From the NCBI GenBank assembly GCA_002104895.1, contig MCFG01000026.1:72501-136500 (forward strand): 64,000 nt of DNA, read 5' to 3'. The DNA comes from Anaeromyces robustus (lineage: Eukaryota; Neocallimastigomycota; Neocallimastigomycetes; Neocallimastigales; Neocallimastigaceae). The position numbers and the translations under genes were made by a program. Of the stretch, positions 51,862 through 54,619 are shown piece by piece. Each line of letters opens with the position of its first letter. The stretch's first letter is position 1. The notes beneath the pieces were generated by a model that saw only the letters and a program-made list of their open reading frames with translations, was not told where the DNA came from and did not search any database.

Positions 51862-54619
51862 ATGGTAAGTAATGATCAAAAATATGACTATATATAAAAT
51901 AATATTTTATATTTATTATTATTTTTCTATATTTTATATTGATATATATTTAAAATGTATAAAAAAATGAAAAATTATATAAATTTTTATCATTATACTA
52001 TTTTTAACTTTTTTTTTTATCAATGTTTTTATTCTTTTATCTAATAATATTATATATATATATATTTACCATAAATATTATAAATAATAAAAAAAAATAT
52101 ATAAAAAAATTGGAAATTTTAACTATATATTAATTGAAAAACATAATAAAAGACCGAGAAAAAGGAAGAAGAAAGTGAATGGAAGAAATGGGAATTAAAG
52201 AAATTTCAAGAATTTCGTTTTGAAATTGATTTTACATCATCAATTACAATAAAAGTAAATTAAATATTTTTAAATAATAATAACAAAAATAATGATAATA
52301 ATAATATCATTATTATCACTATTATCATTATTATCATTATCTTTATTATTATATTTTTTTAATATTAGTATTTTAATATTAATTAAAAAAAAAAAATGAA
52401 TAAATGAATGTATTAATAATTTAATGTAAAATCTATTTTATTATTATATATATTAAAATAATAATCATTTTTTGAATAATAGCTTATTAAAGGAACAGCT
52501 GAAATTTTTGGTGCTGAATTAGCCATTGGAATTGAATATGAAATTAGAGGACAAAAAGCAGCAATATTTACTTGGCATGGATGTATTTTTGAAATATCCT
52601 TTTTTATTATTATTATAAAATATATTGTATATATATATTTAAAAAATAAATTATATTTATTCTTAATTCTTTGACTATTTTTTATTATTGCAAACACATT
52701 AAAGGAGAATGTGATGTAGAATATATAGCAGAAGAAACACCAATGATGAGTTATTTAAATACACATATGGCAATTGAACAAATGAGATGTAGAATTGAAA
52801 AAGAAGGTGGAGATGAACCAAGAGTAATGATTGTTGGTCCATCTGATGTTGGTAAAACAACTTTATGTAAAATATTAATTAATTACGCAGTAAAACATGG
52901 AAGAACACCAATGTTTGTTGATATTAATCCAAATGAAGTAAATTTTTATATTATATTTATAAATATTATTATAATTTATTATTATTATAAATATTATTAT
53001 ATAAATATTATTGTATTATAATTAATATAATAATAAAATAAATTATTTAAAAAAAAAAAAAAAAAAGGGTACTGTTACTATACCATCAACTTTAACAGCT
53101 ACAGTAATTGATAAACCAATTGATATTGAAGAACAACTTAGTGTTCTTCCTGCTAAATCATCCATGGCACCATTAACTTACTTTTATGGTTATTTACAAT
53201 CAACGGATAAATTAAAATTATATAATAAATTATTAATTAAATTATCTGAAACAATACAAAAAAAAATGGATAAAGATTCAGTTGGTAATTATTATTATTA
53301 TTAACTATTATTATTAACTATTATTATTAACTATTATTATTAACTATTATTATTATTATTATTAAAATATTAAATTTGATTGAACATTTAAATATTGTAT
53401 TATAATATTTTAAAAAAATATAGTAAGACATTCAGGTCTTATAATAAGTACACCAAATAATTTATCAAATAATGCTAATTGGGATACTTTTACATTTATT
53501 ATTGAAAAATTTAAAGGTAATATATATATATATACAAATAAAAATTCATAATTTAATAACATATATTATTCTAGAGTTATTTCAGTTATAAACATTAATA
53601 TATATCTATATATAATATACATATATATTTATTAAATAAATATAGTTAATGTTGTAATTGTTGTTGGACATGAACGTTTATATAGTGATATTAATAAATG
53701 TTATCAAGATAATAAGAAAATATCAGTTGTTAAATTAACTAAATCAGGAGGTGTAAGTTTTTTAAAAAATTTTTTTTTCCCATTTTATTTAATTTTAACA
53801 TATTTACATATATTTTTTCTAATTATTCTTTTCTTTTTTTTTTTTAAATTATTATATAATATATATAAATAAATTAATAAATAATTAATGAATTAATTAA
53901 TAAATTAATAAATAAAATATTAAATTTTCATAATAAAAGGTTGTAAATCGTGATCCTTCAACAAGAAGAATACTTCAAAGTTATAAAATTAAAGAATATT
54001 TCTATGGAACTCATAAATGTGAATTAGCTCCATATTCTGTTATAGTACCATTTAGTGATATATTCATAAGGACAATTGAACAAGGTATATATATAATCTT
54101 AATTAATACAAAATAATAATTAATAATAGAAAAAAGAAATTCTTTTAATTATATTAACTAATTATTAATAAATCATTTTAAAATAGGTATTGCACCATCC
54201 TCAGCATTACCAATTGGTATGGAACGTAAAGTTCAAGAAACTAGACTTGTACCAGTTGAACCTACTGAAGATTTAATTAATTCAATATTAGCATTAACTA
54301 ATGTTGATGTAAAAGAAAACGAAGAAACAAATGAAGAAGAAGATGATATTTTAATTGGTACAAGACTATTAGGTTTTGTTCATGTGTAAGTATAATGATA
54401 AATTACAATAATAAATAAATAAATAAATAAATATATATATATATATATAGATAAATAAAAAAATAAAATTATTTTGTTAATTATTATTATTATTATTTGA
54501 ATTATAATAGAACAAATGTTGATACCGAAAAAAAGAAAATTACTTTATTATGTCCATGTCATGGAAGAATACCAAAGAAATATATGTTATTAGCTGATCT
54601 TAAATGGATAGAAACTTAA
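51862..54619 (+). CDS. CLP1: CLP1 polynucleotide kinase / mRNA cleavage factor subunit
   Basis: Ten exons: 51862-51864, 52153-52254, 52483-52593, 52698-52937, 53068-53284, 53424-53516, 53646-53752, 53940-54084, 54187-54385, 54511-54619; 1326 nt, 441 aa. Domains: N-terminal beta domain ending [10 protein letters not shown], then the P-loop kinase domain with Walker A GPSDVGKTT (about 119-127), YLNTHMAIEQMR, MFVDINPNEGTVTIP, KSGGVVNRD, IKEYFYGTHKC and the C-terminal domain (LGFVHVTNVD). Clp1 acts in cleavage factor IA for pre-mRNA 3'-end formation; in animals it is also an RNA 5' kinase on the tRNA splicing complex. The Walker A Lys and Thr are intact, so ATP binding is expected. The start codon is alone in its exon. 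Intron 3 (52594-52697) is an AT-AC U12-type intron; every other intron is GT-AG. Confidence 0.95.
52594..52697 (+). other. AT-AC U12-type intron in CLP1
   Basis: The intron begins ATATCCTTT, a perfect U12 AT-AC 5' splice site, and ends CAAACAC. A branch-like motif TTCTTTGACT lies at about 52667-52676, with its A 23 nt from the 3' end. Splicing here joins GAA to ATT AAA GGA, giving [13 protein letters not shown], which aligns with human CLP1 CSVQLSGRTEVAY as I recall it. A GT-AG alternative from GT at 52583 to the AG before GAGAATG would create a TGA across the junction, and other GT sites give the wrong phase. Confidence 0.88.

Follow-up and report, generated by a model that had tools for sequence, protein, structure and literature searches.

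The window, a 64 kb stretch of the genome of the anaerobic gut fungus Anaeromyces robustus (Neocallimastigomycota), has a GC content of 14.2 % with many homopolymers, and contains a gene for the RNA-processing protein CLP1 on its forward strand. The rebuilt gene has ten exons and a length of 2758 nt, start and stop codons included (51862–54619). Exon 1 (51862–51864) consists of the ATG only and is followed by exon 2 (52153–52254), exon 3 (52483–52593, with the C-terminal end ...CIFE), exon 4 (52698–52937, first residues IKGECDVEY), exon 5 (53068–53284), exon 6 (53424–53516), exon 7 (53646–53752), exon 8 (53940–54084), exon 9 (54187–54385) and exon 10 (54511–54619, including the stop codon). 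Eight of the nine introns are of the GT-AG type and a single intron, at 52594–52697, has AT-AC ends. The 441 aa product contains the Pfam domains CLP1_N, CLP1_P and Clp1 (PF16573, PF16575 and PF06807) in this order, all above their cut-offs, and matches a solved Clp1 structure (PDB 8hmy_E) over residues 5–439, almost its full length, with an E value of 1.6e-91.

The AT-AC intron (52594–52697, forward strand) is 104 nt long, in phase 0 and placed after residue E72, and the CLP1 frame is kept when position 52593 is joined to position 52698; its boundaries are supported by the sequence, by the frame and by read-through of the junction in relatives. U12-type branch sites have the consensus TTCCTTRAC and U12-type introns end in YAC or YAG. 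The intron starts with ATATCCTTT (52594–52602), a perfect match to the U12-type 5' splice site that agrees with the pattern [AG]TATCCTT, and contains the branch-site-like sequence TTCTTTGAC (52667–52675), which is identical to the branch consensus at eight of nine positions and has its likely branch A at 52674. The 3' end reads ...GCAAACAC, with 52697 as its last nucleotide, and the terminal CAC (52695–52697) fits the usual 3' ends. A preliminary description of this DNA had reported an exact U12 5' site, an AC end and a branch-like motif at these positions, and direct reading of the sequence confirmed all three. As a measure of chance, the patterns [AG]TATCC[CT]T and TTC[CT]TT[AG]AC occurred nine and three times, respectively, on the two strands of the window. 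The duplex computed between TTCTTTGAC and the U12 RNA of the same genome was weak (-4.6 kcal/mol). The available text of PMC3584512 gives the 5' site and the branch site as the defining features of U12-type introns and 11–13 nt as the optimum, a preference, for the distance from branch A to 3' end; the distance of 23 nt observed here lies beyond this optimum.

The complete genome sequence (70.2 Mb, 769 contigs) and 14 control genomes were searched with Rfam models for the RNAs of the minor spliceosome. A U12 snRNA (57.4 bits, cut-off 53) and a single copy of U6atac snRNA (61.5 bits, cut-off 33) were detected together with a U4atac candidate that scored 40.4 bits, under the cut-off of 53 (E 4.8e-4), and none of these three models had a match in any control genome. 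The three snRNA genes have a G+C content of 31–36 % as against 12–19 % in their host loci. Rfam searches of the 64 kb window alone returned nothing. A long duplex was computed between the U4atac candidate and U6atac (-30.0 kcal/mol), in which the alignments reveal a double change from C-G to U-A relative to the Rfam consensus. Because of this complementarity, with both sides of the pair altered, the U4atac candidate is probably genuine. U11 RNA gave no match up to an E value of 10 with Rfam at two thresholds, in weak searches of which the first was also silent in the control genomes. The U11 5'-end pattern AAAGGRYTTCTG was present at four sites, compared with nine for the reversed control, and none of the four was U11-like by Rfam.

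The U6atac locus (Rfam match; L003, 1501–1648, reverse strand) retains the U4atac-pairing part well and has GCCG in the box that reads the 5' splice site, whereas the Rfam consensus has AAGG (GAGCCGAGAGA versus GAAAGGAGAGA). Assuming a register in which AAGG normally pairs with CCUU of the 5' site, GCCG would break the usual pairing and leave positions +6 and +7 of AUAUCCUU unpaired. An alternative pairing of GAGAG with CUUUU was computed at -2.8 kcal/mol. The altered box points either to more reliance on U11, or to a shifted pairing, or to a second U6atac copy that was missed. If confirmed, it would constitute a natural test of the U6atac pairing needed by a minor intron.

Matches to three minor-spliceosome proteins were also detected. 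The C-terminal RRM of 65K (RNPC3) was matched with an E value of 1.0e-14, with two weaker RRM matches at 3e-4; the top PDB match of this RRM was RNA-binding protein 40 (E 2.9e-15), followed by RBM41 (E 2.7e-8), and against the general Pfam model RRM_1 the candidate scored 18.8 bits, under the cut-off of 20.7. The ubiquitin-like domain PF18036, which we take to be that of SNRNP25, i.e. 25K, scored 37.2 bits (cut-off 22.8) over model residues 50–89 only, and a second match, on C160, appears to be a different protein with a ubiquitin domain. CENATAC (PF14968, CCDC84) was represented by two matches of 66.4 and 29.3 bits (cut-off 25.3), both on C35, the longer of which crosses five stops, as expected with introns between exons. 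The CENATAC and 25K models had no match in any control genome. The 48K zinc finger (PF05253) was not matched in the genome, in a weak search with a model of only 25 positions, and neither was 59K/PDCD7 (PF16021), in a weak search that was silent in the control genomes too. The CENATAC homologue (L031 and L032) is divided among several exons; it opens with the zinc-finger-like MEYNFFFCEICNRNQ and has a run of WIPNFGGIWNSG close to its end. Loss of CENATAC in human cells affects 92 % of A-type (AT-AN) minor introns and 24 % of G-type introns, according to the available text of PMC8280824.

The preliminary description had taken the intron to imply a working U11/U12 machinery and had listed components by which this could be judged. 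Among these, U12, U6atac and 65K were found, U4atac was found below the cut-off, and U11 and 48K were not detected in the weak searches; 25K and CENATAC add to the support for a working machinery and the undetected 59K counts against it. A genome devoid of every minor-spliceosome component, which had been named as the outcome contrary to this idea, is not what was observed, with three snRNA matches (one below the cut-off) and three proteins. On balance, the interpretation given in that description is supported.

To place the intron among other fungi, the region around the junction was aligned for the best 120 of 601 CLP1 homologues. Removal of 16 entries that lack an NCBI-named genome record left 104 named models; two of the removed entries (P0004 and P0085) also start near the site, on short contigs. 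Deletions, insertions or late starts no more than 18 residues away from the AT-AC position were found in 19 of the 104 models, six of which share a start methionine that lies immediately downstream of the site. Three more models, P0063, P0070 and P0094, were seen by eye to carry substitutions there, giving 22 damaged models, of which P0072 and P0092 come from one species: P0008, P0017, P0047, P0058, P0062, P0063, P0066, P0067, P0070, P0072, P0083, P0084, P0087, P0089, P0090, P0092, P0094, P0105, P0106, P0107, P0110 and P0113. The same count was made for introns 2–9, leaving out intron 1, which follows the start codon. For introns 2, 4, 5, 6 and 8, all of the GT-AG type, it came to 5, 5, 0, 8 and 2, for intron 7 to 14 and for intron 9 to 70, the last two being in or near variable loops. 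The median over positions 27–429 was 8, and variable loops had counts of up to 70 (around residue 200) and 93 (around residues 392–401). Other parts of the protein thus show a comparable or larger excess than the AT-AC site, yet one of this size is unusual within a conserved strand.

The damaged models presumably all fall in the Chytridiomycota, Glomeromycota and Mucoromycota sensu lato. No damage was found in 18 entries that we take to be of Dikarya or Zoopagomycota type (P0009, P0010, P0048, P0061, P0068, P0075, P0095, P0099, P0100, P0103, P0104, P0108, P0109, P0111, P0114, P0115, P0116 and P0120; Fisher P=0.011, for groups defined once the data were known). The Chytridiomycota, Glomeromycota and Mucoromycota include intact models as well (e.g. 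P0007, Rhizophagus diaphanus).

Some of the damaged models appear to contain translated ends of an intron. Exactly at the intron start, P0094 (Zychaea) reads TLE-ISFF and P0070 (Polyrhizophydium) reads VLQ-ISFSF, and ISF is the translation of ATATCCTTT in phase 0. In the 120 proteins, which together contain 52079 tripeptides, ISF is present four times, twice at the site. P0063 (Apophysomyces) has NILSLTIPN directly before VKGE, a peptide that can encode TTCCTTAAC (TTCCTTRAC) with its A 11 nt before the AC end; this property is shared by 13 of 82885 11-mers from 240 proteins, P0063 included, and the branch-site reading is not unique, as the peptide could also encode ATATCCTTT. The insertion in P0017 (Thoreauomyces) ends in FDLH, which fits TTTGAC plus CAC, not the full TTCCTTRAC, and would give a short branch-to-end distance of 7 nt. 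A search of the region with P0070 for further read-through models retrieved only P0070 itself and Batrachochytrium dendrobatidis. Gene models broken at the same place, a few of them with apparently translated intron ends, point to a probable origin of the intron before several early fungal phyla diverged: judging by these models, chytrids, Mucoromycota and Glomeromycota probably carry this AT-AC intron too, with annotation reading into it. About a fifth of the CLP1 models (22 of 104) look wrong at the site, and standard annotation seems to miss the intron. CLP1 models could therefore be a cheap marker of fungal lineages that retain minor splicing.

The strongest competing explanation is that the major (U2-type) spliceosome removes the AT-AC intron and that the resemblance of its 5' site to the U12 type is a coincidence. 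AT-AC introns of the U2 type do exist (PMC8280824, available text), and the undetected U11, the altered 5'-site box of U6atac and the long branch distance are all compatible with removal by this route. It is nevertheless quite unlikely in view of the perfect ATATCCTTT, the presence of minor snRNAs and CENATAC in the genome and the two distant fungi whose CLP1 models read through into ISF at this position.

A second explanation is that an ordinary GT-AG intron lies nearby and that the encoded protein is unlike other CLP1s. All pairs of donor and acceptor sites at least 20 nt apart were enumerated in 52486–52934, with donors up to 52759. The frame remained open in 16924 of the 80145 pairs tried, including 16 GT-AG pairs and one GC-AG pair, none of which yields the conserved CLP1 stretch. 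Such choices would remove the conserved strand, which is indeed missing from some deposited fungal models. The stretch was restored by four pairs only, namely AT-AC at 52594–52697, two shifts of it with TA-CA and AT-AT ends that give an identical mRNA, and a synonymous shift with TC-TT ends. The AT-AC pair also had the top score against five distant CLP1 proteins among the open pairs with common ends. Retention of the intron is rejected as well, with an in-intron stop and a length of 104 nt that shifts the frame. The earlier claim that this intron is the sole choice preserving both the CLP1 frame and the conserved alignment is thus upheld, with no GT-AG alternative left by the enumeration.

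The junction is also read through in relatives. A protein search yielded three proteins of other strains or species with FEIKG across the junction: P0001 (441 aa, 98 % identical to CLP1 over its full length, contig of 1373 nt), P0002 (88 % identical, longest contig 2093 nt) and P0003 (405 aa, 93 % identical, longest contig 1477 nt). All of these contigs are shorter than the 2758 nt gene and would therefore most simply be spliced transcripts. Judged from these proteins, splicing at this junction appears close to demonstrated in the relatives. A fourth relative, P0004, starts downstream of the junction and is uninformative there. With the conserved strand given by no GT-AG pair and FEIKG present in P0001–P0003, a nearby GT-AG intron is highly improbable. 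Hardly more credible is that the gene is broken or that the site stems from an error in sequencing or assembly, as might be feared from a single assembly with a low GC content and homopolymers, since elsewhere the gene is undamaged through its 441 codons and shares 98 % identity with P0001, and the motif exactly matches a known intron class. No named CLP1 of Anaeromyces, Piromyces or Neocallimastix was present among the best 120 of 601 matches; named Anaeromyces and Piromyces proteins are otherwise present in the same protein database. The deposited CLP1 models of these gut fungi may thus be missing, short or broken.

Very probably, the segment 52594–52697 is an AT-AC intron within the CLP1 gene that carries U12-type signals and is likely to be excised by a functional minor spliceosome of A. 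robustus. Removal by the minor spliceosome would proceed with ATATCCTT being read by U11 (not found here) and then by U6atac, which U4atac would deliver, and with TTCTTTGAC being paired by U12. Recognition would be supported by 65K, 25K and CENATAC, the last of which would favour AT-AC introns. A wider reading is tentative and somewhat less likely to be right than wrong when taken as a whole. It holds that the intron has remained AT-AC, and never GT-AG, at one codon of CLP1 since before the split of chytrids, Mucoromycota and Glomeromycota, hidden by gene finders, and that the U6atac box has been rewritten in gut fungi, with the 5' site read via U11 or in a shifted U6atac register.

The intron shares with the U12-type AT-AC introns of animals and plants, as described in the available text of PMC3584512, the ATATCCTTT start, the AC end, a TTCTTTGAC-like branch site and the snRNA and protein partners, and differs from them in its branch distance of 23 nt, in the altered U6atac box and in the undetected U11. 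It has AT-AC termini and a CENATAC homologue in the genome in common with the human CENATAC-dependent A-type minor introns (PMC8280824, available text), and it may depend on CENATAC. Within the same kingdom, minor introns have been described in the early-diverging fungi Rhizopus and Phycomyces (PMC2846911) and, in 2023, in Rhizophagus irregularis, Spizellomyces, Piromyces finnis and Neocallimastix californiae (PMC10639083); minor snRNAs are reported there too (available text). Piromyces finnis and N. californiae belong to the same class as Anaeromyces, the Neocallimastigomycetes. The preliminary description had considered the find surprising on the grounds that minor introns have been lost from most fungi; the surprise is smaller than it claimed because cases in Neocallimastigomycetes, and in Spizellomyces, had already been published (PMC10639083, available text).

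The term 'CLP1' is absent from the main texts of PMC10639083 and PMC2846911, as is 'Anaeromyces' from the main text of PMC10639083, as far as these were available. No mention of a minor intron in a fungal CLP1 was found in the main-text literature searched, and no paper treating A. robustus together with the minor spliceosome was found in the same literature. What looks new is the damage at this site in 22 of 104 fungal CLP1 models, some with apparently translated intron ends. With the present analysis, an anaerobic gut fungus joins the fungi in which minor splicing is seen, supported by relatives that appear to be spliced, and attention is drawn to an AT-AC intron that possibly traces to early fungi and has seemingly been overlooked by standard annotation.

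Further minor introns were sought with a relaxed scan of 295 kb, comprising 200 kb of contig C1, the window and ten small loci. Six of the 120 relaxed 5'-site matches, CLP1 included, were accompanied by an acceptor and a near-consensus branch site. Three of the other five were discarded on the basis of reading frames that show no coding boundary, and the remaining two are known from the pattern match alone. Seventeen RTATCCTT sites were present in the 200 kb of contig C1, none of them a convincing exon border by eye. The scan undercounts such introns, since it missed a likely one, in a FHIT-like gene, whose branch site is further from the consensus.

This FHIT-like gene region (33847–34229, reverse strand) matches a solved bis(5'-adenosyl)-triphosphatase with an E value of 6.1e-40 and contains what is likely the second minor intron of the window, a GT-AG intron of 94 nt (33847–33940, reverse strand) with the 5' site GTATCCTTT and a branch-like AATCTTAAC near its end. 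A 5 nt microexon, AGGAC (33945–33941, reverse strand), is needed for the gene to read KPISPGHVLVIPKR, with an ordinary GT-AG intron before it and the GTATCCTTT intron directly after it. When microexons of up to 30 nt were tried, one other kept the frame and destroyed the PGHVLV motif. Among the single-intron joins, HVLVIPKR is kept by four, and GT-AG, GC-AG and AT-AC ends are absent from all of these.

Elsewhere in the window, an intron-free gene for an NmrA-like NAD(P)-binding protein is located at 17547–18275 (reverse strand). Its product is 100 % identical to the A. robustus protein P0121 over 99 % of the query, and apart from Anaeromyces and Piromyces the named relatives listed come from bacteria (Companilactobacillus and others), which makes horizontal acquisition of this gene likely.
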